Below, piece after piece: positions 2,311 to 38,843 of a stretch of 42,382 nucleotides of DNA; the stretch's first letter is position 1, and every line of letters begins with the position of its first letter. This stretch comes from a virus: positions 1 through 42,382 of the IMG/VR virus record IMGVR_UViG_3300037475_000061. One strand, written 5' to 3'. The position numbers and the translations under genes are program-made. A model generated the notes under the pieces. It did no database searches. It was not told the DNA's origin and saw nothing but the letters and a program-made list of their open reading frames with translations.

Positions 2311-2699
2311 TCTGCTCAAGGTGCGAGTCTGATCTTCCTGCAAAGGAATTTCATAAACGTAATGATGTCCCGTCTGGAAGGGCGTCGGCCTGCCGACTTT
2401 GTGTTAGAAAAAGCAGATTGGGCAAGCAAAAATATATTCGTCGCTCGCAACCTAGAATTAGGGATAAGCGAAAACATTATGCCCAACATCGCATAGAACA
2501 ACTTGTAGATACTGGAAAAATTAAGAAGCCTAAGGTGTGCGCTTATTGCAAAACAAAAACTCCGAAGCATCTTTTGCATGGACATCATTATCGCGGGTAT
2601 GGTTTCCCGCTGGATGTTATTTGGATATGCCATTCATGCCATGCGGCAGAACACGCAGGATATTTGAACGCTGTGCTTGCTCAAAGGGCGGCGTCATGA
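2307..2699 (+). CDS. HNH-like zinc-binding protein
   Basis: 130 residues with two zinc-binding halves. The N-terminal half has CSRCESDL with a second CRLC pair; the C-terminal half is CAYCKTK followed by LHGHHY and CHSCHAAEH, the Cys-His-His-Cys arrangement of small HNH endonucleases. The stretch between the two (KQKYIRRSQPRIRDKRKHYAQ) is strongly basic and suits DNA binding. It overlaps both neighbours by ATGA, unlike a recently inserted mobile gene, yet its codon use is more AT-rich than the surrounding genes, which hints at acquisition. Either a nicking or homing nuclease or a zinc-finger regulator is possible. Confidence 0.75.
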   Translation: MICSRCESDLPAKEFHKRNDVPSGRASACRLCVRKSRLGKQKYIRRSQPRIRDKRKHYAQHRIEQLVDTGKIKKPKVCAYCKTKTPKHLLHGHHYRGYGFPLDVIWICHSCHAAEHAGYLNAVLAQRAAS

Positions 2700-3124
2700 C
2701 CGACAATGTGAGCGGGTGTATGCAAACGAGAGAATTACTGCCGTGCCCGTTTTGCGGGGGCGAAGCTAAGCGTGAGCCGGGATCTCTGGGCGTGTTTACA
2801 ATTGCCTGCGAGGATGACAAATGCCCCGCTAATCCCGTTGTGTCTGGCGTTGGCGATAAGGCGACTGCTAGATGGAACCGTCGCGCCTCTTCGCCCGCGA
2901 ATGATGGTTGGATAGCGGTGACGGAGAGACTGCCGGACGACCATGAAATGTATTTGGTGTGGAAGGTCGATAAGCATGGGGTTTCATATTGCGACACTTC
3001 CAATCTTTGCGGAGACAAGTCTGGATTTTACGTTCTCTATGACGATGAGGGCGCAAACGCTTTGGAGTCTGTCACCCACTGGCGCGAACTCCCCGCCCCA
3101 CCAACCGCACAGGTGCAGCCATGA
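2696..3124 (+). CDS. Lar-like / DUF551 fusion protein
   Basis: 142 residues, starting at the ATG that overlaps the previous stop. Residues about 17-66 have the Lar-type zinc knuckle (LPCPFCGGEA, then CEDDKCPANPVV and ATARWNRR); Lar of the Rac prophage relieves host type I restriction by favouring modification. Residues about 71-138 match DUF551 (WIAVTERLPDD at one end, THWRELPAPP at the other), a small domain common in phage early regions and of unknown role. Both domains often occur alone or together in phages. An anti-restriction role is plausible for the N-terminal half only. Confidence 0.8.
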   Translation: MTDNVSGCMQTRELLPCPFCGGEAKREPGSLGVFTIACEDDKCPANPVVSGVGDKATARWNRRASSPANDGWIAVTERLPDDHEMYLVWKVDKHGVSYCDTSNLCGDKSGFYVLYDDEGANALESVTHWRELPAPPTAQVQP

Positions 3125-4638: not shown

Positions 4639-4725
4639 GTGAAAACTATTTCGCCGCAGGATGATTGGCTGTTAAATTACTGGCGTCTCGTCGTCGAGGA
4701 ATGGCTGAAATATGAGTTACGTTGA
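4639..4725 (+). CDS. possible 28-aa peptide, GTG start
   Basis: GTG at 4639, two bases after the previous stop, opens a 28-codon frame with three tryptophans (QDDWLLNYWRLVVEEWLKYE) ending inside the start of the radical SAM gene. The amphipathic, protein-like composition and the position filling the only gap in this coupled chain are the support. It may be just a leader that couples translation into the radical SAM gene, or chance. Confidence 0.3.
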   Translation: MKTISPQDDWLLNYWRLVVEEWLKYELR

Positions 4726-6232
4726 CCTTGTTCTGATTCACCCAGGCGCTGCGTCCCAAATTTATCAGGGGCTCGCGTCGGACTTTTCCGCGATCGAGCC
4801 GCCGCTGTGGTGCCGGTTATTAGCCGGCGCCGTGCGTGACAAGCAGTATTCGGTCGCTATCATCGACGCCGAGGCGCTATCCCTTACGCCATCAAGAGTC
4901 GCGATTCAGGTCAGGGAATACCGTCCGCAACTGGTCGGCATCGTGTGCTTTGGTCATCAGCCCAGCGCATCGACGCAGCAAATGGTAGGCGCATCGGCTA
5001 CCCGCAAGGCACTCGCCGACATCTGCCCGGATATTCCCGTCGTCATGCTGGGCGGACACGTCTCGGCGCTGCCTGAACTCACGGTGATCGAGGAGGCATG
5101 CTACGCGGCCAAGGGCGAGGGCGTAGCTACGTTGCTCGGACTGCTCGACGGGTTGCCCAACAAGGACGTTCCGGGGTTGGTATGGACTTCTCCTGCCGGC
5201 ATTGTCATCAATCCAGGCGCCCCACTCGCCGACATTCCCCGCGGCGATCTGCATGGCAATGCGTGGGACTTGCTGCCGATGGACAAGTATCGCGCTCACA
5301 ACTGGCAATGCTTCGGCGACCTGTCCAAGCGCCGGCCGTATGCGTCGATCTACACGTCGCTGGGCTGCCCCTACAAGTGCTCGTTCTGCTGCATCAACGC
5401 GCCGTTCGACAGCAACAAATACCGGATGCGAGATCCTGCTGCGGTCGTGCGCGAGATCAATAACCTGATGTTCTACCACGGCGTTCACACGTTCAAGATC
5501 GTGGACGAAATGTTCGTGCTGAACGATCGGCATGTCAACGCGATCTGCGACTGGCTCATAGACTGCAAGCTCGGCGACTACCTTAACATTTGGGCATACG
5601 CCCGCGTCGATACGGTGAAGTCACCCGAGCAACTGGACAAGCTGCGTGCGGCCGGCGTGCGCTGGCTGGCGCTCGGCATCGAATCTGGCAGCAAGCACGT
5701 CCGGGATGGCTCTCAGAAGGCGCTCAAGAACGACGACATTCTAAAGACCGTAAAACTGATCCAACAGGCGGGAATAAATGTCATCGGGAATTACATATTC
5801 GGGCTGCCCGATGATACCGATGAGACGATGAAGGATACGCTTGCGCTCGCGCTCGAAGCGAACTGCGAATTCGCTAATTTCTACTCGGCGATGGCTTATC
5901 CTGGTTCCGCCCTCTACGGCATGGCTATCAAAGATGGATTGAAACTTCCTGCGGAATGGAGCGGCTACAGCCAGCACTCGTTCGATTGCACGCCACTTCC
6001 GACCGCGACGCTGACGGCTGCGGAAGTCCTGCGGTTTCGGGACTCGGCGTTTCACAAATACTTTACCGACCCGTCGTATCTCGGGATGGTGAAGCGCAAG
6101 TTTGGCGTGGAAACTGTGGAACATATCAACCGGATGGTCGCTCAACCGTTGCCGCGCAAGCTACTCGGAGGCGTGGATAACATGCGTGCCCATGACCTCG
6201 AACCGGAACGGAATCTCGACCAGCTTGCATAA
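4712..6232 (+). CDS. radical SAM enzyme with N-terminal B12-binding-like domain
   Basis: 506 residues. Residues 1-160 have the Rossmann-like pattern of cobalamin-binding radical SAM proteins (LVLIHPG, VAIIDAEAL, LVGIVCFG, VVMLGGHVSALPE) without the DxHxxG base-on histidine. Residues 215-430 are the radical SAM barrel: C219, C223 and C226 form the [4Fe-4S] motif CxxxCxxC (LGCPYKCSFC), followed by KIVDEMFVL, LALGIESGS and NYIFGLPDDT blocks. This class B architecture performs methylations, rearrangements or C-S/C-P bond chemistry. It is convergent with, and overlaps by 72 bases, the sugar operon, suggesting that its substrate may be the same sugar or a lipid; this is inference. Chlorin-ring and P-methylase relatives share the fold, so the reaction is not predictable here. 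Confidence 0.88.
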   Translation: MSYVDLVLIHPGAASQIYQGLASDFSAIEPPLWCRLLAGAVRDKQYSVAIIDAEALSLTPSRVAIQVREYRPQLVGIVCFGHQPSASTQQMVGASATRKALADICPDIPVVMLGGHVSALPELTVIEEACYAAKGEGVATLLGLLDGLPNKDVPGLVWTSPAGIVINPGAPLADIPRGDLHGNAWDLLPMDKYRAHNWQCFGDLSKRRPYASIYTSLGCPYKCSFCCINAPFDSNKYRMRDPAAVVREINNLMFYHGVHTFKIVDEMFVLNDRHVNAICDWLIDCKLGDYLNIWAYARVDTVKSPEQLDKLRAAGVRWLALGIESGSKHVRDGSQKALKNDDILKTVKLIQQAGINVIGNYIFGLPDDTDETMKDTLALALEANCEFANFYSAMAYPGSALYGMAIKDGLKLPAEWSGYSQHSFDCTPLPTATLTAAEVLRFRDSAFHKYFTDPSYLGMVKRKFGVETVEHINRMVAQPLPRKLLGGVDNMRAHDLEPERNLDQLA

Positions 6233-7144
6233 GGCGCTGCGCACGTAGCCCTGATGCTCGGGCTTGGCGAATAGCAGCATGAAGCCGCCACCGCCGGCAC
6301 CCAGCAGTTTCCCGCCCAGCGCACCGGCTTCGACCGCAGCCTGATAAATCTGGTCAATTGCATGGGTGGACACGCCCGGCGACAGCCCCCGCTTTAGCAG
6401 CCATGAGTCGTGCAGCAGTTCGCCGAATGGCTCAAGGCGTCCGGTGCCTTTTAGGATTCCGACCGCGTGCGGCACCATCGAGGCAATGGCGCGCAGTTGC
6501 GCGTCGTTGTCGTCCATGCGCGCAATCTGATCCTTGGCGACTTCAGGCGCGAACCGCTGGAACCCCGTAAAGAACAGCATCAGGTGAGACTGCAGTTCCA
6601 GCATCCGGTCGCCCTGGATGTTGACCGGAACCACCTCGAACGTGTCGTCCTGGCGCAGGATGATCTCGTTGAGTCCCCCGTGCGCGCACTCGATCTGATC
6701 CTGAACTCCGACGACCTCTCTCAGAATTCCCTGCTCGACGTTGATGGCGGCGCAGGCGAGCGCGTCTTTGTTCAGTGGCGACCGGATAAGCCCCGTCAGC
6801 GCGTTCAGCAGTCCCACCGTGAACGCTGACGACGATCCGAGACCCGACTTGGCAGGAAGGTCGCCCCAATGGTGGATCTCCACACCCTGCTCGATCCTGA
6901 GCCGCTGCAGGCACGCCCTGACCGACGGATGCTCGATGTCCCCTACAGCGCTCGGCGTCTCGATTTTCGACCATACGATGCGGTGCCGGTGCTCAAAAAA
7001 CGGCGGCAGCCAGCGGGCGCTCAGGTGGCAGTATTTGTCGATGGTGGAGGTCAGCACGCGCCCGCCGTGCTTGAGATACCACTGGTTATAGTCCGTGCCG
7101 CCGCCGAAGAAGCTGACGCGGTAGGGGGTTCGGGTGACGATCAT
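6161..7144 (-). CDS. GHMP sugar kinase, heptose-7-phosphate kinase (HddA)-like
   Basis: 327 residues, minus strand. The N-terminal RTPYRVSFFGGGTDYNQWY (5-23) is the substrate loop typical of D-glycero-D-manno-heptose-7-phosphate kinase and its close relatives. Residues 96-107 (LPAKSGLGSSSA) are the GHMP ATP-binding motif 2, and the GGKLLGAGGGGFMLLF segment is motif 3. Family members phosphorylate C1 of heptose-7-phosphate on the way to GDP-heptose. It overlaps the nucleotidyltransferase gene by ATGA, the expected next step. Fucokinase-like or galactokinase-like specificity cannot be excluded from sequence. Confidence 0.88.
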   Translation of the reverse strand: MIVTRTPYRVSFFGGGTDYNQWYLKHGGRVLTSTIDKYCHLSARWLPPFFEHRHRIVWSKIETPSAVGDIEHPSVRACLQRLRIEQGVEIHHWGDLPAKSGLGSSSAFTVGLLNALTGLIRSPLNKDALACAAINVEQGILREVVGVQDQIECAHGGLNEIILRQDDTFEVVPVNIQGDRMLELQSHLMLFFTGFQRFAPEVAKDQIARMDDNDAQLRAIASMVPHAVGILKGTGRLEPFGELLHDSWLLKRGLSPGVSTHAIDQIYQAAVEAGALGGKLLGAGGGGFMLLFAKPEHQGYVRSALCKLVEIPFRFEVMGTHVIHASE

Positions 7145-7542
7145 ATGGCAGCCTTAACCAGAGCGGACGACGACTGAATTTTCCCCCCGCCGACACCGAA
7201 CACTTCCTTGATGCCGTATTTTTCGCAGACCTCGTGCTCGGCCGGATTCGCGGTCGTGCGGTCGCCACCGTTGCAAAAGAAGTTCGGACGGAAGCGGTCG
7301 AGCAGGTCGCAGATCGTGCCGTCGTCGTCCTTGACCGCCAGCACCATGTTGACCCACGTGATCGCGCCCAAGATTTCTTTTCTCTCGTCGAACGGCATGA
7401 ACACGTAGCCCTTCTTTCGCATGAGCCATGCGTCCGAGTTGAGCGCGACCACGAGCCGCCCGTATTTGCTTGCCGCCTCCCGCATCATGCGAAGGTGGCC
7501 GATGTGCAGCGGATCGAAACCGCCGGAGACGAGGCAGATCAT
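7141..7542 (-). CDS. cytidylyltransferase-fold nucleotidyltransferase (RfaE2/TagD-like)
   Basis: 133 residues from the ATG at 7542, which overlaps the preceding stop (ATGA). GGFDPLHIGHLRMM (residues 7-20) carries the HxGH-type nucleotide-binding motif, and a later NGGDR block corresponds to the RfaE-domain KGGDY region; the end IQSSSALVKAA matches the SST-like motif of the family. Such small enzymes join a sugar or polyol phosphate to CTP or ATP. Coupled to a heptose-type kinase, it probably activates the sugar-1-phosphate. The usual partner HddC is a larger GDP-specific enzyme of another fold, so the nucleotide used here is uncertain. Confidence 0.88.
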   Translation of the reverse strand: MICLVSGGFDPLHIGHLRMMREAASKYGRLVVALNSDAWLMRKKGYVFMPFDERKEILGAITWVNMVLAVKDDDGTICDLLDRFRPNFFCNGGDRTTANPAEHEVCEKYGIKEVFGVGGGKIQSSSALVKAAI

Positions 7543-8534
7543 CTCGTCAGGTGGGCGTGTTTCAGCACCCGCCCCCGCCAGTAGTTGAGCAAGTCTTTCA
7601 TCGTGTCCTCGAAGTGAATGTGCGGCGCCCATCCCGTGTGCTCCTTGAATTTCTGGCAGTTCGGTATCTGCAGGTCGGCGTCAATCGGGCGCATCCTGGC
7701 GGCGTCCTGAATCACCGAAAAATTCTGCGCGCCCGATAGCCGGATCAGGGTATTCAAAATGTCATGCACAGTGCAGGAGTGCATGCCGCCGATGTTGTAG
7801 ACCTCGCCCCGCTGCGGATTGATGGTGAGCGCCCAGTGGTAGGCGCGCACCGCGTCCCGCACGTCGGCGACCGTCCGCATGGATTTAAGGTTTCCGACCT
7901 TGACGAGATTGATCTGGCCCGCTTCCACCATCGCGATCTGCTTGGCGAACGTGGACTCCATGAATACATCGCCGCGGCGCGGTCCGGTGTGCGTGAACAT
8001 GCGCGTAACGATGACATTCATACCATACGCTTCGGCGTAGTGCCTCCCGATGAGATCTGTCCCGACCTTGCTGATGGCGTAGGGGCTGGCGGGATGAAAC
8101 GGCGCATTCTCGTCGATCGGCACAGACTTCGCCCGGCCATAGACCTCGGACGACGAGCAGACGTGAATCCATGCGCCAGGCGAACATGACCTGATCGCTT
8201 CCAACAGGCGAACGGTTCCCTGCACGTTCGTATCTAGGGTATCGCATGGAGCGGTAAAACTTGCGACCGGATAGCTTTGTGCAGCGAGATGAAATACGTA
8301 GTCGGGGGCGGCGTCTGCGACTGCGGTTCGTAGGCTCGCGTCATCCCGCAGGTCAGCATAGAGGAGGTGGAGTCGGTCGCCCTTGTTGGCACGGGGAACA
8401 AGATGCTCGATATTATCCAGAGGGCTGCGATGGCGAATCGTCGCATAGATGTCCCAATCCGTTTCTGCGAGCAGGTAGTCGATAAGGTGCGAGGCGACGA
8501 ACCCGGTGCCGCCGGTGATTAAGCAACGAGTCAT
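7539..8534 (-). CDS. NDP-sugar 4,6-dehydratase, GDP-mannose-dehydratase-like
   Basis: 331 residues, extended SDR fold. The cofactor loop GGTGFVAS (8-15), FHLAAQS (81-87), the active-site SSSEVYG (127-133) and Y152xxxK156 (PYAISK) are all intact. The SSSE(V)YG version is typical of GDP-mannose 4,6-dehydratases and of DmhA-type GDP-heptose dehydratases rather than dTDP-glucose RmlB. The expected product is a 4-keto-6-deoxy NDP-sugar, the substrate that the PLP dehydratase encoded two genes upstream needs. Its stop overlaps the nucleotidyltransferase start. Confidence 0.9.
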   Translation of the reverse strand: MTRCLITGGTGFVASHLIDYLLAETDWDIYATIRHRSPLDNIEHLVPRANKGDRLHLLYADLRDDASLRTAVADAAPDYVFHLAAQSYPVASFTAPCDTLDTNVQGTVRLLEAIRSCSPGAWIHVCSSSEVYGRAKSVPIDENAPFHPASPYAISKVGTDLIGRHYAEAYGMNVIVTRMFTHTGPRRGDVFMESTFAKQIAMVEAGQINLVKVGNLKSMRTVADVRDAVRAYHWALTINPQRGEVYNIGGMHSCTVHDILNTLIRLSGAQNFSVIQDAARMRPIDADLQIPNCQKFKEHTGWAPHIHFEDTMKDLLNYWRGRVLKHAHLTR

Positions 8535-8980
8535 TTGTTTTTCTTTCTCAGGTATCTTTCAGCGGAGGATTTTTTTCTGCACGCCCTGCATCTCCTGTTC
8601 TTCCCGCCCTTAAAATAATACGTGTTTTCAGAATTGAATTCGTGGCCGTTGTCGCAATGGGTTTTCTTCTGATTTCTTGTTCTTCCTTTAGACGCACAAT
8701 CGAATCCATTATCCTTCTTGGTTCCTATAAATAGATGAAATGGGTTGCAGCATGCGGGTATATCGCATCTATGCAAAACGCATTCCGATCCTGAGATGGG
8801 CGCAATAAATTCTGAATATGCGGCCCTGTGTGCCTTGACATTCCTTTGTTTCCCGATGATTCTGAATACGCCATAACCGTGTTCATTTGTCGCGTTCATC
8901 CAAATCCAGCACCCTGACTCGGGAACTCGAACTACTCTGTTCTCAATGTATTCTTTTAAAGTTTGTTCAGTGCGGCGCAT
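8531..8980 (-). CDS. free-standing HNH endonuclease
   Basis: 149 residues. SGCWIWMNATNEHGYGVF is the N-terminal strand seen in phage HNH_3 homing endonucleases; HRAAYSEF, VLHRCDIPACCNPFHL (the HNH core) and a C-terminal C-x-x-C/C-x-x-C zinc site (CDNGHEF to CRACRKK) follow. The gene is markedly more AT-rich than its neighbours. It sits between the 3-dehydratase and the 4,6-dehydratase and overlaps both (25 bases and ATGA), so it inserted without breaking the operon. The likely role is selfish mobility, not sugar chemistry. Confidence 0.9.
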   Translation of the reverse strand: MRRTEQTLKEYIENRVVRVPESGCWIWMNATNEHGYGVFRIIGKQRNVKAHRAAYSEFIAPISGSECVLHRCDIPACCNPFHLFIGTKKDNGFDCASKGRTRNQKKTHCDNGHEFNSENTYYFKGGKNRRCRACRKKSSAERYLRKKNK

Positions 8981-10152
8981 AAAATATCTACCTTTTCTGG
9001 CTCAAGATCCGGGATATTCCCAACATATAATCCGTAAAAATGAACGTGCTCTGCCTCGGGATAGTCTCTCGGATTGAGATTCAGGTGCCGCAGATACGGC
9101 TGGCGAACCTGATTGCCGCCGCCTGCGGTGCCCCGACGATATTCCACGCCGTGATCACGCAGGCACTTGAGTACGCGCTGCATAAGGGCGTCATTTTTCT
9201 CCCGCAGTACCAGCGGCAGCGCGTAGTTGCTCGACCCCTCGGTTGCGTAGTTGGTGCGGTATTTGTCGGCATCGAGCAGAGACAGGAATAGCAGCAGGTT
9301 CTCCGTCCGGCGCTTGACGCTCACATCGAGCCGCTTCAATTGCGAGCGCCCGATGACGGCGTTTATCTCCGTCGAGCGCATGTTGAACGACGGCGACAGG
9401 AAAATGAACTCGGGATGCAGGTCGGGATTGCTTCTCTCAACGTCCCGCCGGAACTCCGCGTTGTCCGACTCGCGCAGAAGCCCGTGCGAGCGCAGCGTGC
9501 GGCACAGTTGATAGAACTGCTCGTTGTCGGTGCAGATCATCCCGCCCTCGATGGTGCTCATGTGGTGCGCGTAGTAGAACGAGAAGTTTGACGCAATACC
9601 AATTGTTCCTAACTTTCTCTGATAACGTGTCGCGCCGATGGATTCGCAGCAGTCCTCGATGATCCAAGGTTCGACAAATGTATCCCCAAGTTTATAAAAT
9701 GGAATTCGCGTCGCGAACGAGTCGAACCCAAGGCAGTGAGTCAGGAATACGGAATCGACCCGCGGCATCCTGCCCCAATCAAGGCCCAGCGTGGTCGGCA
9801 AAATATCGACGAACACGGGCGTCATTCCGGCGTGCATGATGCTCATGATGTCCGACGACCAAGTGATACACGGAACGGCGACCCTTCCTTTGCCATACAA
9901 CTGCGCCACCGCCATCATCGTAATCAGATTGGCGCTCGCGCCGCTATTCACCATGACTGCGTATTTGCAGCCGAGCCACTGCGCGAACTCGCGCTCGAAC
10001 TCGCGAACCTGGTCGCCATTGGTCAGGCGCGGACACTCTTCCACGCCAATCTCGCCGAGCGCCGGATATTTCCCCGTCGCAATAAATCCCATCGCCGCCT
10101 TTCTATCTTCGGGCGAGATGTTGTTTCGCATCAGCGGCCAGTTCAGATTCAT
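8956..10152 (-). CDS. PLP-dependent sugar 3-dehydratase, ColD/DdhC-like (His replaces Lys)
   Basis: 398 residues of the DegT/DnrJ/EryC1/StrS fold. Landmarks are KYAVMVNSGASANL (63-76), the PLP-contacting IIEDCCES (164-171) and SFYYAHHMSTIEGGM (191-205). In ordinary aminotransferases of this fold that last motif carries the Schiff-base lysine; here it is His196. The same Lys-to-His change defines ColD (GDP-4-keto-6-deoxymannose 3-dehydratase) and DdhC/RfbH, which remove the C3 hydroxyl instead of transferring an amine. The overall pattern (YAVMV.SG, FYxxHHxxTxEGG, NxRxxExxxAIG) recalls ColD, and the Cys cluster of DdhC's Fe-S site is absent. Expected role: making a 3,6-dideoxy 4-keto sugar from the product of the 4,6-dehydratase. 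Confidence 0.88.
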   Translation of the reverse strand: MNLNWPLMRNNISPEDRKAAMGFIATGKYPALGEIGVEECPRLTNGDQVREFEREFAQWLGCKYAVMVNSGASANLITMMAVAQLYGKGRVAVPCITWSSDIMSIMHAGMTPVFVDILPTTLGLDWGRMPRVDSVFLTHCLGFDSFATRIPFYKLGDTFVEPWIIEDCCESIGATRYQRKLGTIGIASNFSFYYAHHMSTIEGGMICTDNEQFYQLCRTLRSHGLLRESDNAEFRRDVERSNPDLHPEFIFLSPSFNMRSTEINAVIGRSQLKRLDVSVKRRTENLLLFLSLLDADKYRTNYATEGSSNYALPLVLREKNDALMQRVLKCLRDHGVEYRRGTAGGGNQVRQPYLRHLNLNPRDYPEAEHVHFYGLYVGNIPDLEPEKVDILCAALNKL

Positions 10153-11063
10153 GACGGTATCGGCAACCCTATTTTGTTGAGGATAGTTGTCCAGAACACG
10201 AGCGGAGAATGATTCGCCATCACCTTTTTACGCAATGACGAACCCATCGCCTCGGTGACGTTCGGATGCTCCGACATGTAATTGATGATGCGCGCGGCAT
10301 CTGCGGCGTCCTTGTATTCGATGTAATCGAGGCTGGGCTGAAACCACCGCGATACCGGAGACCCCGCGTTTTCCAGCAGGCAGCAGCCCGCGAGTGCCGC
10401 CTCGACCACGCGACCCTTGACGTGCATCACCTGTTCGCTGCCGGAATAGGCAATGTTGAGCGCCATGCGGCAGGTCGTCAGGTAGTCGCAGAACGCCTCG
10501 TAAGTGTAGGGCAGGTTCGAGCGGATTCTGAGCGCCACCAGCTTGTCGCGCAGCAGTTCCGAGAGGATGGCTGAGCGATTGCTGTTCTCCCCGCCCGCAT
10601 TCCCGCCCCAGCCGCACGCGGTCGGCCGCTTAGAATGCGGCACGATCTCAGCGGGGAAGTAGACCGGATCGACGGGGGTCAGCAGCGTCAGATTCGCCGC
10701 CGCTGCCGGCCAGTTCGGATTGCCGTCGATGGCGACCTGACAGGTGAACGCACCGGCGTCGTGATACAGGCGCAGAACATCGTGCCACGGCACGTCCGCA
10801 GCGTCCGAGCAAAAATGGATCATCGGCGCGACGGAATTGGTGATCTTGGCGAGCATCGAGATCGACGGTTGTTGGCCCCAGCGGCTGCCGATGTAGACGA
10901 CGAAATCTGGCTTGTCGTCCTTTACCTGCGCGTAGAGAACGGCGTCGGACGTGCCGGGAAGGTCGTAGATGATGCGCGTGACCTCGCCCCATCCGAGAGC
11001 GCGAATCGACTCCCAATATTTTTCACATTCATTCGTTCGTGTCGTCAGGAACGTGGTTTTCAT
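10149..11063 (-). CDS. GT-B (family 1/4-like) glycosyltransferase
   Basis: Starts at the ATG at 11063, behind an AAAGGA ribosome-binding site and overlapping the stop of the small upstream gene; 304 residues. The C-terminal half has the GT-B donor-binding signature: HVKGRVVEAALAGCCLLENA (214-233) with its conserved acidic residue, then a DYIEYKDAADAARIINYM block and a basic end helix. The N-terminal half is a Rossmann-like acceptor domain (FVVYIGSRWG, MIHFCSDA). As the first sugar gene of the operon it most likely transfers the sugar made downstream. The acceptor is unknown. Confidence 0.82.
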   Translation of the reverse strand: MKTTFLTTRTNECEKYWESIRALGWGEVTRIIYDLPGTSDAVLYAQVKDDKPDFVVYIGSRWGQQPSISMLAKITNSVAPMIHFCSDAADVPWHDVLRLYHDAGAFTCQVAIDGNPNWPAAAANLTLLTPVDPVYFPAEIVPHSKRPTACGWGGNAGGENSNRSAILSELLRDKLVALRIRSNLPYTYEAFCDYLTTCRMALNIAYSGSEQVMHVKGRVVEAALAGCCLLENAGSPVSRWFQPSLDYIEYKDAADAARIINYMSEHPNVTEAMGSSLRKKVMANHSPLVFWTTILNKIGLPIPS

Positions 11064-11789: not shown

Positions 11790-12282
11790 ATGACGCTGCC
11801 AACTCGCCGCCAGTTGAACCGTGTTCGTGATCGCCGGCGAGTCGAGCGGCGGCGGCTAGTTTTACTTGGTTCTGGGCCGAGTTCGCATCAATTGGCATGG
11901 ATGCAAGGTCGATCAAACTATCCAATCCCACGACTCGGCCAATTGAGATACGTTCCTCCACTGCTTTTCGCACCGACTCCTCAGAAACCCCTTTACCCGT
12001 CGCCCGAGTGGCATCGAGCGTGGCTTGCAAGACTGCGGAAACTTGGATTGCTCGGTTCAGACGAAGTGCTGTGACGCTCAAAATCTGCGACGCGATAAAA
12101 ATGTCGCCGCGCGCCTCGATCAGCGCCTGCTTGGCAGTATCCTCGTTGAAATTAGTAGGATAGACCCGTGCCAAACCCGAGCCGCTGGATGGTGGCGAGT
12201 TGCTCGATGAGTCTGCCCCGTCCGATGTCGAGCCGGTACTGGCAGTCGTTGGTTGCGATTTTGACTTTTTTGACCGCGGCAT
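11665..12282 (-). CDS. putative terminase small subunit-like protein
   Basis: 205 residues from ATG 12282, preceded by a GGAG ribosome-binding site at five bases. The first 40 residues are basic and then Ser/Gly/Pro-rich. Residues 45-150 are helical: an HTH-like segment (AKQALIEARGDIFIASQILSVTALRLNRAI), then EERISIGRVVGLDSLIDLAS and SAQNQVKLAAAARLAG. This arrangement is typical, as far as I recall, of phage small-terminase-like DNA-binding proteins. It lies 23 kb from the large terminase, which has no other obvious small subunit. Its first 131 bases overlap the ATP-grasp gene in another frame. Confidence 0.6.
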   Translation of the reverse strand: MPRSKKSKSQPTTASTGSTSDGADSSSNSPPSSGSGLARVYPTNFNEDTAKQALIEARGDIFIASQILSVTALRLNRAIQVSAVLQATLDATRATGKGVSEESVRKAVEERISIGRVVGLDSLIDLASMPIDANSAQNQVKLAAAARLAGDHEHGSTGGELAASFKELADLYQQHAPRVRLVRERLSVEVSGPAERVVNDDTPRG

Positions 12283-13498
12283 AGGCGCTCCGTCTTGCTC
12301 CTGTAATGGTTTCCCCTGTTCCCGTCGCTACAAACACGTAATCGTCGGTCGTGACATACGTCGGGCACACGACGACCTTATCTCCCATCTGCCGCGGCAC
12401 ATCGTCTATCCGCACGCCGGACAAGTGAATATGCTCGCGGTCTCCGCAATTGTAAACCGGAATCCCGTCGATCTCCCGTCGCGTGAATTTGGAGTTCGGG
12501 TAATCCGGTATCGACACGACGACCGAGATGCTGCAGGTATCGAACTTCACTTTGAGCGTGTCCTTCCCCATGCAGCAGTCGAGCATCCACTGCGCCGGAT
12601 CGCCATCGTGCAGCGACATCTGATTGTGGAATATCGGCCAGCCTGGTCGCATCGTGAACTCGAACGGCCAGTATTCCCCCTTGTCGTCGATGCAGCCCGA
12701 CACGTCAACGTGGCCCACATAGTCCAGACGGTGTAGTACCTTGGCGATCGGCTTCAAGGCGATGTCGGCCAGTTTCGATTTCTTCACGTAGCGCACGAGC
12801 GTTCCCTGCTCGCCGGTCGTGGGTCCGAGATCGCCGTCCATGAATTTTTTGTATTCCCAATTCTCGCACCAGCAGTCGTTGAACCCGTGCGGCCCGAACC
12901 AGCCGCCGACCGCCATTTCGCATCCGGTCTTTTTTTCCTGCAGGATGAAGCCCTGCGACTTCGCATCGGACACGTATTTTTCGTTGTTCGGCCAGCGTTG
13001 CGTCAGCATGAAGATGAGGCTCGCAGCGTCCGCGCCGACATAGGACAGCGCCTTGTTCGCATCGCCCGACGGCTTGCAAACTGTGTAGGTCTGGTGCGCC
13101 TCGACGAACTTCGCCGCTCGCTCAAAGTCCTTGAACTCGATGCCGGGAATCGTGTTGAGCCCGCACTCTTCCATCGCCGCCTGTCCCGCCGAGCGGTCGA
13201 GTTCCAGTTCCGCCGCCTCTTTCGAGGGACCGAATATCGGGTAGCCTAATTGACGGTACGGTTCGAGCAGGTCGAGGTATTTCGTGTTGTCGGGCACGAA
13301 TATCAGGTCCGCCCAGCCGATGTATTTTTTACGCAGCAGATCGAAGTCGCGCAGCTTGTGAACGATGCCCTCACCGGCGCGGCGCTCGCTGCCGTCCTTG
13401 CGCTTTTCATCGAACCAGACGACCTCGTGCCCCCACTGCTGGCAGCGCATGGCGAAGTCGAGGCAGTTCGACCATGTATCAATACATAGGATTTTCAC
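12152..13498 (-). CDS. ATP-grasp ligase, PurD (GAR synthetase)-like
   Basis: 448 residues with the layout of phosphoribosylamine-glycine ligase: an N-terminal Rossmann part (KILCIDTWSNCLDFAM, LIFVPDN), the hinge GPSKEAAELELDRSAGQAAMEE in place of the PurD GPxxxAAxLExSKxxAK block, the ATP-grasp core (YTVCKPSGDANKAL, GFILQEKKTGCEMAVGGW, HVDVSGCIDDKGEYWPFEF) and a C-terminal ATGTGETITGARRSAYA plus YRLDIG end. ATP-grasp enzymes form amide-type bonds between a carboxylate and an amine. It is followed by the small-terminase-like gene and preceded by putative ejection proteins, so a purine-synthesis role is not implied. Substrate unknown; a modification of the sugar, of DNA or of a protein are all open. 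Confidence 0.85.
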   Translation of the reverse strand: MKILCIDTWSNCLDFAMRCQQWGHEVVWFDEKRKDGSERRAGEGIVHKLRDFDLLRKKYIGWADLIFVPDNTKYLDLLEPYRQLGYPIFGPSKEAAELELDRSAGQAAMEECGLNTIPGIEFKDFERAAKFVEAHQTYTVCKPSGDANKALSYVGADAASLIFMLTQRWPNNEKYVSDAKSQGFILQEKKTGCEMAVGGWFGPHGFNDCWCENWEYKKFMDGDLGPTTGEQGTLVRYVKKSKLADIALKPIAKVLHRLDYVGHVDVSGCIDDKGEYWPFEFTMRPGWPIFHNQMSLHDGDPAQWMLDCCMGKDTLKVKFDTCSISVVVSIPDYPNSKFTRREIDGIPVYNCGDREHIHLSGVRIDDVPRQMGDKVVVCPTYVTTDDYVFVATGTGETITGARRSAYAAVKKVKIATNDCQYRLDIGRGRLIEQLATIQRLGFGTGLSY

Positions 13499-18253: not shown

Positions 18254-18883
18254 TTACGCCTTCAATAGTTCCGGCAGTTCGTTTACCTGCCACGAGCGGA
18301 AAAGCTCATTATAAAAGATACTCGCTTTCTGAGCGGCCCGATAGGTCTTGTCCCACTTGCCCGTGTTGAATAGCGGGTGCAGATGGTCGTATTTCAAGTC
18401 CTCGCGGTAGCGCAGTTTCCCCGCCGCGCGGCCGATTTCGTGCCACACAAGGTCGATGCCCCAATGCGAGAACCAGCGCGGCGACAGGTAGCCGATCTTG
18501 CGCACCAGATCGCCGCCGATGCAGGGCATCGTGCATAGCGCCTCGCCGTGGTGCTGGTCGTTCGCATAGGCGACGAATTCCGAGCCCGCCTCTTTTTCCA
18601 GTTCGCGCAGCATGCCAGGCGTTGCGAGAACCGCGTCGTCAGCGAGGAACCCGTAGAACGACTCGTTTGGATAGCGGCGCAATATCTCGTTGTAGGTCGG
18701 CCCGTTGCCGAGCATGCTGACCGCCTCGACCTTCCACCCGTCCGGCCATTGCTGTTTCAGGTAGTCGTGCAGGCAGGGGTCGGCGTCATAGAGCGCGAGG
18801 AGGACATTCTCCCCGCTCCATGCGTACGAATCCACCACGCGGCGGATCAACTCGGGACGACCGAGCGAAGTAAAAATCCACAT
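18254..18883 (-). CDS. GT-A-like glycosyltransferase, 209 aa
   Basis: A compact protein with the N-terminal IFTSLGRPELIRRVVDSY typical of family-2-like glycosyltransferases, a YDADPC strand end (32-37), the invariant-looking GPTYNEILRRYP region, and FYGFLADDAVLATPGML with an acidic pair (A81-D-D83) at the metal/nucleotide position. A later WFSHWGIDLVWHEIG segment supplies the acceptor side with a conserved Asp. At 209 residues it is a minimal GT-A domain with no membrane anchor. It lies between the spanin pair (TAATG overlap at 18883) and the ejection-protein genes, so it is co-expressed with virion and lysis genes and may glycosylate a virion protein. Confidence 0.75.
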   Translation of the reverse strand: MWIFTSLGRPELIRRVVDSYAWSGENVLLALYDADPCLHDYLKQQWPDGWKVEAVSMLGNGPTYNEILRRYPNESFYGFLADDAVLATPGMLRELEKEAGSEFVAYANDQHHGEALCTMPCIGGDLVRKIGYLSPRWFSHWGIDLVWHEIGRAAGKLRYREDLKYDHLHPLFNTGKWDKTYRAAQKASIFYNELFRSWQVNELPELLKA

Positions 18884-29839: not shown

Positions 29840-30360
29840 GTGCCTACGTTGGTGAAGGTGACGTTCGCGGAATTGAGCACCCGCAGCAGCAGTTTTCGCA
29901 CGTTGCCGGTCACGGTCGAGGTCGAGCCGAGGATCTGCGTGTTCGAGTCACCGGCGGCGAGCGACAGTGTCTGCCCGGTGTTGTTCATGATATGCACGGG
30001 CTCGCTGTAGCTGCCGTCGAGCGGAACCGAGGGGCCGAGGGCTGCGATGATGGCGGCGGTCGAGGGCAGCGTCACGGTGCCGGTGCCGGTGAAGCCGGCG
30101 TTCAGCATCGTGAATCCCGCGAGGATGTTGCCGCTCGGCGGGGCCGGCGACTGGATTGCGTTCTGGCCCGAGGCGATCAGCGTCGCGGTGGTGCCCGAGG
30201 TCGCGAGCGATGAGAGCGATTCGGCGTAATTGTTGATGTTCGACCACAGGCCGGTGACGCCATTGTTGCCGGTCGCATCGACGTTCTGCTGGCCGGCCGG
30301 TATCGGTGCGATGATCGACGGGCAGAGGAAGGCAAGAATCAGGGACAGGGAAATTTTCAT
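29827..30360 (-). CDS. head decoration-like protein, paralog 1
   Basis: 177 residues from ATG 30360, overlapping the glycosyltransferase stop. A hydrophobic leader (SLSLILAFLCPSIIAPIPAG, residues 3-22) precedes a beta-rich domain with VTLPSTAAIIAALGPSVPLD, then VHIMNNTGQTLSLAAGDSNT and a C-terminal VTGNVRKLLLRVLNSANVTF strand. The C-terminal half has the same strand order as the gene at 31044-31592, so the two are probably paralogs. No catalytic residues; a capsid decoration or head-fibre base is likely. Confidence 0.7.
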   Translation of the reverse strand: MKISLSLILAFLCPSIIAPIPAGQQNVDATGNNGVTGLWSNINNYAESLSSLATSGTTATLIASGQNAIQSPAPPSGNILAGFTMLNAGFTGTGTVTLPSTAAIIAALGPSVPLDGSYSEPVHIMNNTGQTLSLAAGDSNTQILGSTSTVTGNVRKLLLRVLNSANVTFTNVGTWTF

Positions 30361-31040
30361 GCGGCCTCCGCATCGTCGATGCACGGGATGTGCGCGTGCG
30401 TGTACTGGAAATTGCCGACGTGCCGGACGTGGCGCGACAGGTCATGGTCGATGTAGCACTTGTGGCCCGCGTCCGCCGCCTTGCCGATGAAATACCAGTC
30501 CTCGCCGACGAACTGCTGATTCTTGTCCGACCAGCGAAGCTCGAACCACGGCTTCGGGATGTCTTTGAGTATCGACATGTCGATCATGATGAGTCCGAAC
30601 CCCAAGCGCCACACCTCTTCGACGCCTAGCGGATTGGACGAGGAGTTCGAATACACCGGAACGCCGAATGGCGTAGCGCCGCGCGCACGGGCCGTTGGGA
30701 ATGACGGAATGGTTTTGAGCGGAATGTTCGCCCCGACGATGGGCTTACGCGCGGCCAGCAGGCGGTGCGCGGCGTCCATCGGGAAGGTCTGGTCGGTGTC
30801 GATAAAGAGCGCGTGCGTGCAGTTCTGCAGTTGCGCGTCCTCCAGGCACTCCTGTCGCGAGCGCGGCAGGTTGGAGGTGCGCTTGTCGATAAAGATGAGT
30901 TCTCTCGACTGGCCTGACTCAAAAAGGGCCGACGACACGTAGACGCACAACTGAATGAGCGAATACCCGAAGTCGGCTTTCCACTCGCCGCCGGAAGGGA
31001 TGCATAGCGCCATCTTGATGTGGCGATCGGTGTTCGGCAT
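30357..31040 (-). CDS. GT-A-like glycosyltransferase in the capsid module
   Basis: 227 residues. KMALCIPSGGEWKADFGYSL is a GT-A first strand, THALFIDTDQTFPMDAAHRL contains the metal-binding D81-T-D83 (DxD), and EVWRLGFGLIMIDMSILKDI, then FVGEDWYFIGKAADAGHK, gives the conserved ED acceptor motif. This is close to complete for a soluble family-2-like domain. It lies between two decoration-like genes and upstream of scaffold and coat, sharing the internal promoter at 31631-31658. Expression with the capsid suggests glycosylation of a head protein; this is inference. Confidence 0.82.
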   Translation of the reverse strand: MPNTDRHIKMALCIPSGGEWKADFGYSLIQLCVYVSSALFESGQSRELIFIDKRTSNLPRSRQECLEDAQLQNCTHALFIDTDQTFPMDAAHRLLAARKPIVGANIPLKTIPSFPTARARGATPFGVPVYSNSSSNPLGVEEVWRLGFGLIMIDMSILKDIPKPWFELRWSDKNQQFVGEDWYFIGKAADAGHKCYIDHDLSRHVRHVGNFQYTHAHIPCIDDAEAA

Positions 31041-37030: not shown

Positions 37031-37215
37031 CGGCTCTTTCGACGCGTCGCGTTCGATTCGCGGATCGCCGCCAGTGTCGTCTCGCGGAACTCGGGGTCTT
37101 TCCACAGCATGCGCATGTTTTCTGCGCGCTTGTTGACGGTATTTTGCGGCAGTTTCGTAAATTCGCGCAGCCCGCAGAGCGTCACATTGCGCGGTTTCAG
37201 GTCGGACAATTTCAT
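37027..37215 (-). CDS. small protein with NUMOD3-like motif, 62 aa
   Basis: ATG 37215 overlaps the E1-beta stop, and the stop overlaps the large-terminase start (both ATGA). The middle reads NTVNKRAENMRMLWKDPEFR, resembling the short DNA-contact repeat (NUMOD3-like, with LWxDPEFR) found in phage homing endonucleases and in small terminase-linked proteins. It is basic overall. Candidate DNA-binding accessory of packaging or a remnant of a mobile nuclease. Confidence 0.65.
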   Translation of the reverse strand: MKLSDLKPRNVTLCGLREFTKLPQNTVNKRAENMRMLWKDPEFRETTLAAIRESNATRRKSR

Positions 37216-37781
37216 GTCGACCCGTAGCTGTCGGCGTATTCGATGAGCAACGTCGAGCGCGCATCGGGGCGCGTCAACGCGCGGCGGTAGGCCGGCACGA
37301 TGTCGCAGGCGTGGGTCAACTCCTGCACGACCACCGAGGAGAGCATCGCGCGCATCGCGTGGGTAAAGTCGCCGCGGTGCTGATGCTGGGGGTCGAGCGG
37401 CACGACACTGCCGACCGCCGTTCGCACGATCACGCGCGGCCGATAACCGCCGCCCGACATGGCGCAAATCTTGTCGAGATGGTTCACCAGTTGATTGACC
37501 GCACAGAGCAGGAAATTAAACCGGGGATAGATCGAGACCACCGTGTAGCCCATCATCGCAAGCCCGATCGACTGCCCCATCTGCATCTCTTCGGCGACCG
37601 GCAACTCAATCCGTTTTTCGAGCGGCACGCCTTCGAGCGTGCCGTACATCGCGGTGCCCGGATAGCGCACCGCCTGGCCGACAAAGAGCGTGTCGCGGTC
37701 CACCCCCAGCATCGTCATCGCGCGGGTCAATTCGGCAAAATGCGTCGACTCAGAAATTGATGCGGGTGCCTGATCCGGCAT
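37212..37781 (-). CDS. TPP-dependent dehydrogenase E1-beta-like / transketolase PYR domain
   Basis: 189 residues. RYPGTAMYGTLEGVPLEKRI, then ELPVAEEMQMGQSIGLAMMG with E64 as the cofactor-activating glutamate, then FNFLLCAVNQLVNHLDKICA and MSGGGYRPRVIVRT follow the E1-beta (alpha-keto acid dehydrogenase) pyrimidine-binding domain closely. The usual C-terminal domain (another 130 residues) is absent, so it is a half-length beta subunit. It overlaps the E1-alpha-like gene by 32 bases, implying a heteromeric enzyme. The substrate is unknown; possibilities include a decarboxylation or a two-carbon transfer. Confidence 0.82.
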   Translation of the reverse strand: MPDQAPASISESTHFAELTRAMTMLGVDRDTLFVGQAVRYPGTAMYGTLEGVPLEKRIELPVAEEMQMGQSIGLAMMGYTVVSIYPRFNFLLCAVNQLVNHLDKICAMSGGGYRPRVIVRTAVGSVVPLDPQHQHRGDFTHAMRAMLSSVVVQELTHACDIVPAYRRALTRPDARSTLLIEYADSYGST

Positions 37782-38346
37782 GCGGATACCTCGATTCGTA
37801 GTGGTAGGACACCAGTTCGTGCGGCGTGTCGCTCATGCCCGGCAGCGTCTCGCCCCACGCATCCCTGGTCGGCGTGCAGACCGACAACCCGTTGTCCTCG
37901 ACCACCCACCGGATGTTGAGCATATGCCCCGAGGCGTAGCGCATGCACTCATCGAACATCCCCGTCTTGGCCGTCATGTCGCCCACGAAGCAATGCACCC
38001 GCGCCGCCTCCCCGCGCCGCTTCATCCCCATCGCCAGCCCCACCGCAATGGGCAAAATACCGCCGACTATCGCCGAGGAAACGATCCTGTGCGACGGAAA
38101 ACACAGCGCAATCGACCCGCCGGCCAGTATCCGCGACCGCAATATTTCCGGCGGCACTCCCTTCAACAGGCATTTCAGGTGACTTCTCCATGAGCAACAA
38201 ACCCAATCTTCATTACTGATTTTTTTAAAAACCTCGATGAGTTGAAACTCGTTCCCGCTTTCCAGATGAATTGGTGCGCGTATTTTTCCTGAGTTGAAAA
38301 GTTCGGCTATTTCATTTTCAAAGTCAGTCAATTCAGAGGCATTCAA
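37750..38346 (-). CDS. TPP-dependent dehydrogenase E1-alpha-like subunit, TTG start
   Basis: 198 residues if started at TTG 38346, which overlaps the HNH stop (TTGA) eight bases after AAAAGG. PIHLESGNEFQLIEVF, then VCCSWRSHLKCLLKGVP, match the N-terminal region of E1-alpha; SSAIVGGILPIAVGLAMGMK and V-GDM-TAKTGMFDEC, ending VVEDNG, give the TPP/magnesium motif GD-x(28)-N (G122, D123, N152). The C-terminal 120 residues of normal E1-alpha are missing, but the cofactor site is intact. Together with the beta gene it resembles a minimal split transketolase/E1. Terminal truncation may be natural for phage versions. Confidence 0.8.
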   Translation of the reverse strand: MNASELTDFENEIAELFNSGKIRAPIHLESGNEFQLIEVFKKISNEDWVCCSWRSHLKCLLKGVPPEILRSRILAGGSIALCFPSHRIVSSAIVGGILPIAVGLAMGMKRRGEAARVHCFVGDMTAKTGMFDECMRYASGHMLNIRWVVEDNGLSVCTPTRDAWGETLPGMSDTPHELVSYHYESRYPHAGSGTRINF

Positions 38347-38843
38347 ACCGAGTACCTTTTCATGTAGGCGGCTATGGCTTCTATTTCCGAAATAAGAGAG
38401 TCCCGCTTGATCGCGTTGCAGCGCCAGCAAATTATCCCAATGTTACCCCGAACGTATCCGAGCGCAGGATTTATGCGATCGAGTGACGGCGTGTTTGGTT
38501 TCGGCCTTCCCTTGTTGTCCTGCATCGAATAGTCAAACGGAATAGAACAACATTCGCAAGCATCGGGACGAAGTCCTCCTATCTCAAAAAGATAATCGAG
38601 GTCGAATTCAACTCCTCGATCTATTGCGCGTTTCTGAGCCTGATACACGAGACGACGAAGCCGATGCTTTTCCCTGTATCTCCGGGCAGACGCCTTTGCC
38701 ATGAGTTTTACTGCGGGATCTTTTCTGCGACCCCTCTGGTAGTTCCTGACACGCTCTTTCTGAACTTCGGTTTTCCCGTTTTTGAGATACCACCGACGGT
38801 AATGCTCCCGCTTCCTATCTAATTTTTCTGATTCGGTCAACAT
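38343..38843 (-). CDS. HNH endonuclease, first gene of the late block
   Basis: 166 residues. A basic helical half (EKLDRKREHYRRWYLKNGKT, ASARRYREKHRLRRLVYQAQ) is followed by the nuclease core: CECCSIPF, then TPSLDRINPALGYVRGNIGI with ICWRCNAIKRD. This is the phage HNH type where the SLDRI histidine/asparagine core lies between two Cys pairs. AT-rich compared with its neighbours. It ends on the start of the E1-alpha-like gene. As with the HNH at 8531, it abuts a metabolic gene, so a free-standing homing role is likely. Confidence 0.88.
   Translation of the reverse strand: MLTESEKLDRKREHYRRWYLKNGKTEVQKERVRNYQRGRRKDPAVKLMAKASARRYREKHRLRRLVYQAQKRAIDRGVEFDLDYLFEIGGLRPDACECCSIPFDYSMQDNKGRPKPNTPSLDRINPALGYVRGNIGIICWRCNAIKRDSLISEIEAIAAYMKRYSV

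Follow-up and report, generated by a model that had tools for sequence, protein, structure and literature searches.

A phage contig with genes for a possible C4-branched 3,6-dideoxy heptose

Gene content of the contig

The IMG/VR virus record IMGVR_UViG_3300037475_000061 is a contig of 42382 bp, all of which was analysed (hereafter the window). It carries a leftward operon of sugar genes, together with further sugar genes elsewhere, which may direct the synthesis and transfer of an unusual activated heptose. The original prediction had described five operon genes at 6161-11063, encoding a kinase, a nucleotidyltransferase, a 4,6-dehydratase, a C3-dehydratase and a glycosyltransferase. All five are intact on the minus strand, their family matches are well clear of chance, and ATGA stop/start overlaps are present at four junctions (glycosyltransferase/ColD-like, HNH/GMD-like, GMD-like/nucleotidyltransferase and nucleotidyltransferase/kinase), as had been proposed; an HNH endonuclease gene that had gone unmentioned interrupts the row. 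The five genes stand as a functional set, but the set runs further than was thought, to a radical S-adenosylmethionine (SAM) gene convergent with the kinase gene, to a pair of thiamine diphosphate (ThDP) enzyme subunits, E1a and E1b, encoded directly upstream of the terminase gene (37212-38346), and to a small GT-A-like glycosyltransferase. The sugar genes of the window, with the HNH gene, are the following (SDR, short-chain dehydrogenase/reductase; PLP/PMP, pyridoxal/pyridoxamine phosphate; NDP, nucleoside diphosphate):

4712-6232, plus strand: B12-binding radical SAM enzyme (PF04055 1.3e-17; PF02310 2.8e-12)
6161-7144, minus strand: GHMP kinase, HddA-like, of the D-glycero-D-manno-heptose-7-phosphate 1-kinase type (NCBIfam HddA 5.6e-38)
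7141-7541, minus strand: small cytidylyl/adenylyltransferase, HldE C-domain-like (TIGR02199 3.1e-17)
7539-8534, minus strand: NDP-sugar 4,6-dehydratase (SDR), heptose type, GMD-like (GDP_Man_Dehyd 9e-76; PDB 7us5)
8531-8980, minus strand: free-standing HNH endonuclease (PHROG 826 5e-35)
8956-10152, minus strand: ColD-type PLP/PMP C3-dehydratase (DegT 7e-53; PDB best ColD)
10149-11063, minus strand: glycosyltransferase, Glyco_trans_1_2, GT-B-like (PF13524 7.2e-13)
18254-18883, minus strand: small GT-A-like glycosyltransferase (AlphaFold2 model and Foldseek)
37212-37781, minus strand: E1-beta-like ThDP subunit, PYR domain, E1b (PRK09212 1.6e-9)
37750-38346, minus strand: E1-alpha-like ThDP subunit, PP domain, E1a (TIGR03182 1.3e-21; PF00676 1.5e-10)

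The contig is viral, with matches to phage terminase, portal-like and major head protein genes. With these matches, which relatives share, the reading of the contig as host contamination is ruled out and the link to a phage holds. The terminase search matched only distant ones among cultured phages, so no host is assigned.

Kinase, nucleotidyltransferase and dehydratases

The core enzyme set, treated together here, comprises the kinase, the nucleotidyltransferase and DEHYDRATASES. Against GHMP family profiles, the kinase scores 131 bits with HddA, 86 with fucokinase and 63 with mevalonate kinase, and its top four PDB matches are all HddA-type (4usm and 4usk, the Burkholderia heptokinase WcbL; 4n3o; 3k85). 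Fucokinase/galactokinase is therefore rejected as the closest family, and the assignment as HddA-like is borne out. The residues essential in WcbL are R13, D22, S118-120, Q162 and D163 (PMC4691232). They align with R9, D18, S104-106, Q148 and D149 of the phage kinase, which are conserved by alignment and a conservation check and are partly common to other GHMP kinases.

The nucleotidyltransferase, whose ATG start at 7541 overlaps the stop of the GMD-like gene, carries a HIGH motif and matches glycerol-3-phosphate cytidylyltransferase (2.5e-12) after the C-terminal domain of HldE. This fold commonly takes ATP or CTP; which nucleotide the phage enzyme would use is uncertain.

The best PDB match of the SDR is 7us5, a GDP-D-glycero-D-manno-heptose 4,6-dehydratase (2.4e-91, 309 bits), far ahead of the next match at 173 bits, and both catalytic motifs, SSSEVYG and YxxxK, are found. 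These data support the predicted heptose-type 4,6-dehydratase. Similarly, the ColD-like protein matches ColD in the PDB (8e-42, 146 bits) better than DdhC-type enzymes (about 90 bits). His196, within SFYYAHH, replaces the PLP lysine, as it does in 79/79 co-located relatives; an ordinary aminotransferase is excluded by this histidine, and the ColD-type C3-dehydratase of the original prediction is upheld. Neither a C5-epimerase nor a C4-reductase was recognised among the window open reading frames scanned, in a contig which may be partial.

A miniature ThDP enzyme

E1a matches E1-alpha subunits of pyruvate dehydrogenase (PDH), with PF00676 above its gathering score, and its probable start is a TTG at 38346. 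Its family profile matches PDH E1-alpha at 7e-15, and an AlphaFold2 model (pLDDT 89) matches PDH E1-alpha in Foldseek with E about 1e-9 and a TM of up to 0.74. For E1b, which was found in 4/4 multi-gene relatives tested and ends without the C-terminal transketolase domain, the family profile matches PDH E1-beta at 3.9e-11 and the single protein matches NCBIfam PRK09212. The region of the ThDP motif (GDM...N in E1a) and the catalytic-Glu region ELPVAEE of E1b are conserved in the pair. Both homologues and the ThDP motif thus stand amid a set of deoxysugar genes.

No E2 or E3 component of PDH was recognised. A general PDH-type metabolic gene is disfavoured by the lack of E2/E3 and of C-terminal domains and by the linkage to the C3-dehydratase described below.

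In the cyanophages S-SM2 and P-TIM68, both E1 halves form one protein, annotated "transketolase central region", which adjoins genes for a phosphoheptose isomerase, a heptose adenylyltransferase-like protein and a carbohydrate kinase. These phages resemble the present one in placing an E1-alpha/beta homologue beside sugar genes, which in the cyanophages are of heptose type; they differ in the fusion of the two halves and in that neither a C3-dehydratase nor a B12 radical SAM enzyme of the window type was recognised in them.

Radical SAM enzyme and glycosyltransferases

The radical SAM enzyme has the CxxxCxxC motif and 57-60% identity to proteins of four related contigs (L012, L013, L016 and L010; other loci are likewise given L numbers). 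Its relatives include HpnJ, BchE, AprD4 and a tryptophan methyltransferase, which do not fix its reaction; it may C-methylate the sugar.

The GT-B-like gene is kept with the module in the same four contigs and in L008, and a PDB search with its protein (10149-11063) returned nothing meaningful. The GT-A-like protein gives a model of pLDDT 88, whose best Foldseek matches are GT-A fucosyltransferases, first among them WrtF (5e-6), and its gene adjoins the other glycosyltransferase gene in L008, L010, L028, L032, L033 and L041.

Conservation of the gene set in phages and bacteria

The whole gene set occurs in five phage contigs, one of them without the nucleotidyltransferase, and E1a/E1b and the radical SAM enzyme are present in all five. 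L012 has the genes in a row (glycosyltransferase, E1a, E1b, radical SAM, ColD-like, GMD-like, nucleotidyltransferase, kinase), and the pairs L013/L009 and L016/L011 have the same set split in two blocks, with terminases about 60% identical to that of the window. L010, which lacks the nucleotidyltransferase, is contiguous (radical SAM, ColD-like, GMD-like, kinase, E1a, E1b, two glycosyltransferases, GT-A-like), and no shared terminase, head protein or other recognisable structural gene was found in the stretches of it that were read.

The E1a scan covered the best 80 of 157 viral contigs and 9 bacterial contigs from metagenome-assembled genomes, one of which (L028) looks like a phage; at 90% identity they reduce to 65 non-redundant loci, viral or bacterial. 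In every one of the 65, E1b is encoded close to E1a and on its strand, and in most of them the two are directly adjacent. A His-type C3-dehydratase is near E1a in 50/65, always on the same strand and at a median of 551 bp; several of the remaining 15 loci stop at contig ends. Conversely, among the best 80 viral loci nearest the window C3-dehydratase, 63 have an E1 or transketolase-like ThDP subunit within 8 kb (42 the mini E1 and 21 a more divergent subunit), 58 a B12 radical SAM enzyme and 38 the kinase. When the best 80 loci were fetched by the kinase, all 8 that have a C3-dehydratase also carried E1a, against 2 of the 72 that lack one (Fisher 1.6e-9).

The divergent ThDP subunits of the 21 loci are mostly full-length E1-alpha-like proteins (about 280 amino acids), with a few like the N-subunit of split transketolases. 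Loci in which other ThDP subunits replace the mini E1 include L114, L115, L118, L120, L125, L128 and L131, among others. This variety suggests several kinds of branch. In other phages, E1 is accompanied by RfbH and hexose 4,6-dehydratases, and these phages seem to run a hexose version of the pathway. At L059, the dehydratase beside E1 exceeds the curated cut-off for RfbH, the enzyme type from which YerE receives its substrate, CDP-3,6-dideoxy-4-keto-glucose.

Two bacterial loci add further context. In the SAR116 gene cluster L027, a gene with HddC as its top match lies beside genes for an HddA-like kinase, a GMD-like SDR and E1. In L025 (1796-3614 and 8978-17372), a kinase-E1a-E1b-C3-dehydratase-radical SAM module stands together with a pair of flagellin genes, a GT41 gene and a Glyco_trans_1_2 glycosyltransferase, and this locus is likely an island for glycosylating flagellin with a branched sugar.

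Comparison with known pathways

The capsule loci of Campylobacter jejuni HS:5/HS:11 hold hddA, gmhA, hddC, a GDP-heptose 4,6-dehydratase, a PLP C3-dehydratase, a C5-epimerase and a C4-reductase, and the GDP-3,6-dideoxy-heptoses of these serotypes have been produced in vitro (PMC10440746). The earlier statement that a heptose kinase and a 3-dehydratase meet in no known pathway is therefore wrong, and with it falls one part of an interpretation whose kinase, dehydratases and phage contig stand. The phage shares with C. jejuni the HddA-type kinase, the SDR of the GDP-heptose 4,6-dehydratase type and the PLP C3-dehydratase. It differs in that no hddC, gmhA, C5-epimerase or C4-reductase was recognised in the window, in its additional ThDP enzyme and B12 radical SAM enzyme, in the type of its nucleotidyltransferase, and in being phage-borne.

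In the yersiniose A pathway, YerE transfers activated acetaldehyde from pyruvate onto CDP-3,6-dideoxy-4-keto-glucose (PMC12247030). As proposed for the phage, the ThDP carboligase receives a 3,6-dideoxy-4-keto sugar from a C3-dehydratase; however, YerE is a single-chain enzyme of the decarboxylase superfamily in a pathway that starts from CDP-glucose, whereas the phage enzyme is a split mini E1 type with a presumed heptose start. Two-subunit pairs of the alpha-keto-acid-dehydrogenase type have been assigned the same branching in avilamycin, paulomycin, kibdelomycin and other pathways (PMC12247030, PMC4753412). AviB1/AviB2, Pau11/Pau12 and KbDH-alpha/beta, likened to the phage proteins by their description, are E1-alpha/beta-like pairs in deoxysugar clusters from which a C2 branch derived from pyruvate is expected (PMC4753412, PMC12247030). 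These pairs belong to bacterial antibiotic clusters, while the phage subunits are short and without C-terminal domains.

The individual components are already known, as is the chemistry in outline; what appears new is the way they are combined and how widely phages carry the combination. Among open-licence papers, none was found that describes branched-sugar synthesis encoded by a phage, nor one on the joint occurrence in phages of heptose-type dehydratases, a C3-dehydratase, a mini split ThDP enzyme and a B12 radical SAM enzyme.

A proposed pathway

The genes, their families, their key residues and their conserved linkage are observed directly; from them we infer the substrates, the nucleotide, the order of reactions, the ThDP reaction and the acceptor. 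On balance, we lean narrowly towards a phage whose own genes cover the greater part of a route to an NDP-activated, C4-branched 3,6-dideoxy heptose, which glycosyltransferases would transfer, most likely onto a virion protein. The host would probably provide D-glycero-D-manno-heptose 7-phosphate through GmhA and take off the 7-phosphate through GmhB. The phage kinase would phosphorylate C1, and the nucleotide would be added by the small nucleotidyltransferase or by a host enzyme. The SDR would then yield a 6-deoxy-4-keto sugar, from which the ColD-type enzyme would strip the 3-hydroxyl. The mini E1-alpha/beta pair would decarboxylate pyruvate or another 2-keto acid and transfer the resulting acyl group to the keto carbon at C4. 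C4 would thereby become a tertiary alcohol bearing a two-carbon branch, in a sugar of nine carbons in total, and this step would replace the C4-reductase step. The B12 radical SAM enzyme would alter the sugar further, perhaps by C-methylation, and the GT-B- and GT-A-like enzymes would pass it to an acceptor accessible from the cytoplasm, most likely a virion protein of the phage.

By analogy with the pairs above, addition of a two-carbon unit to C4 of a 3,6-dideoxy-4-keto-heptose is the most economical reading of E1a/E1b, as branching at C4 would account both for the missing C4-reductase and for the tie to the C3-dehydratase. The heptose backbone appears favoured for this phage group by the SDR and kinase matches, the L027 cluster with HddC and the cyanophage neighbourhoods. 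The 3,6-dideoxy heptose that had been predicted as the product would be right as to the heptose, but probably serves as a pathway intermediate and not as the end product.

Several points weigh against this pathway. It is drawn from sequence, linkage and analogy; the acceptor proposed for the E1 pair is putative, and that of the finished sugar is a guess. The family scores of the window enzymes all lie under the NCBIfam equivalog cut-offs, and the kinase is so far below that of HddA (131 against 600 bits) that "HddA-like" is its proper label. The HldE-like nucleotidyltransferase suggests ADP or CDP, whereas the nearest relatives of the dehydratases use GDP sugars, and no GmhA, GmhB or HddC was recognised in the window. 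Neither of the E1 subunits, of about 200 and 180 residues, has a counterpart to the C-terminal portions of PDH E1, and no C3-dehydratase was recognised alongside the E1 fusion of S-SM2 and P-TIM68. Finally, the sugar genes of the window are spread over three places, and the linkage counts come from related sequences that are not phylogenetically independent, with only the best 80 matches taken per search.

Alternative products and acceptors

The product could instead be a plain NDP-3,6-dideoxy-heptose of the C. jejuni HS:5/HS:11 kind, completed by the host with an epimerase and a reductase, with the ThDP and radical SAM enzymes serving otherwise. The core enzymes are the same as in those loci (PMC10440746). 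However, no epimerase or C4-reductase was recognised in the window, and this, the retention of E1a/E1b and the radical SAM enzyme in 5/5 related phage contigs and the strong linkage of E1 to the C3-dehydratase make this product unlikely. A branched dideoxy hexose, related to yersiniose or colitose, with the kinase acting on another sugar phosphate, would agree with the RfbH-type and hexose 4,6-dehydratase loci of other phages and with the action of ColD on a GDP-hexose. Yet the nearest match of the SDR is by far the GDP-heptose 4,6-dehydratase, well ahead of any GMD, and the kinase, nearest to HddA, lies directly beside E1a in many loci and in one bacterial cluster together with HddC, so we judge a hexose just as improbable, if not slightly more so.

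As to the acceptor, a virion protein is our first guess, host lipopolysaccharide the second, and DNA unlikely. A protein target draws support from L025, where flagellin and glycosyltransferase genes accompany the module. Modification of the host surface (lipopolysaccharide core or capsule) that blocks superinfection would be compatible with the proposed pathway. O-antigen modification by phages is well known, and L027 sits among polysaccharide-type genes, but no flippase, polymerase or membrane glycosyltransferase was recognised in the window, and the glycosyltransferase genes adjoin structural genes (at 18254 in the window and in L028 beside a nozzle-like gene); a host-surface target is thus a serious minority possibility. 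Glycosylation of hypermodified bases in the phage DNA appears very improbable: DNA glycosylation does occur in phages, but no base-hydroxylating or thymidylate synthase-like gene was recognised in the window, of a record which may be partial.

More broadly, and only tentatively, phages may widely encode pathways for C4-branched deoxy sugars built on a mini split ThDP carboligase coupled to a C3-dehydratase, with the present phage group making a branched nine-carbon sugar on a heptose backbone, radical-SAM-modified, for a virion protein. Branched higher sugars are so far known from a small number of lipopolysaccharides and antibiotics, and as the same genes occur together in numerous other phages, viruses may be an overlooked source of exotic sugars. 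If true, they would hold a large untapped sugar chemistry, including a minimal ThDP carboligase for tertiary alcohols and, it seems, sugar-directed catalysis by a B12 radical SAM enzyme. It would also raise the question of why phages need such sugars, for which virion coating, host surface change, defence evasion and receptor competition come to mind. The linkage over many viral contigs makes several alternative enzyme sets open to chemical tests.

HNH genes and other features of the window

Two further genes lie near or among the structural genes:

30357-31040, minus strand: possible second GT-A-like gene in the structural/capsid region, tentative (DTDQT motif by eye)
38343-38843, minus strand: HNH-like endonuclease gene adjoining the E1a gene (by-eye resemblance; no library match)

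The first has no library match and 61% identity to proteins of L009 and L011. The second has a G+C of 0.49. The HNH gene at 8531-8980, with a G+C of 43% against 58% for the operon, separates the ColD-like and GMD-like genes and is missing at this junction in L012, L013 and L016; it is an insertion in the operon, outside the sugar pathway. HNH genes or fragments recur beside or between genes of the module or nearby structural genes, in the window (8531-8980, 38343-38843) and likewise in relatives (L016 10968-11120 and 14661-15020; L018 4378-4683), and could help the module to spread.

Rfam RNA and tRNA scans of the window found none, and the signal of a promoter/terminator scan was near chance. 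An early-arm protein (2537-3124, plus strand) has a restriction-alleviation Lar-like domain followed by DUF551, and a late-region ATP-grasp protein (12152-13498, minus strand) resembles phosphoribosylamine-glycine ligase (PurD 1.4e-21, GARS_C).

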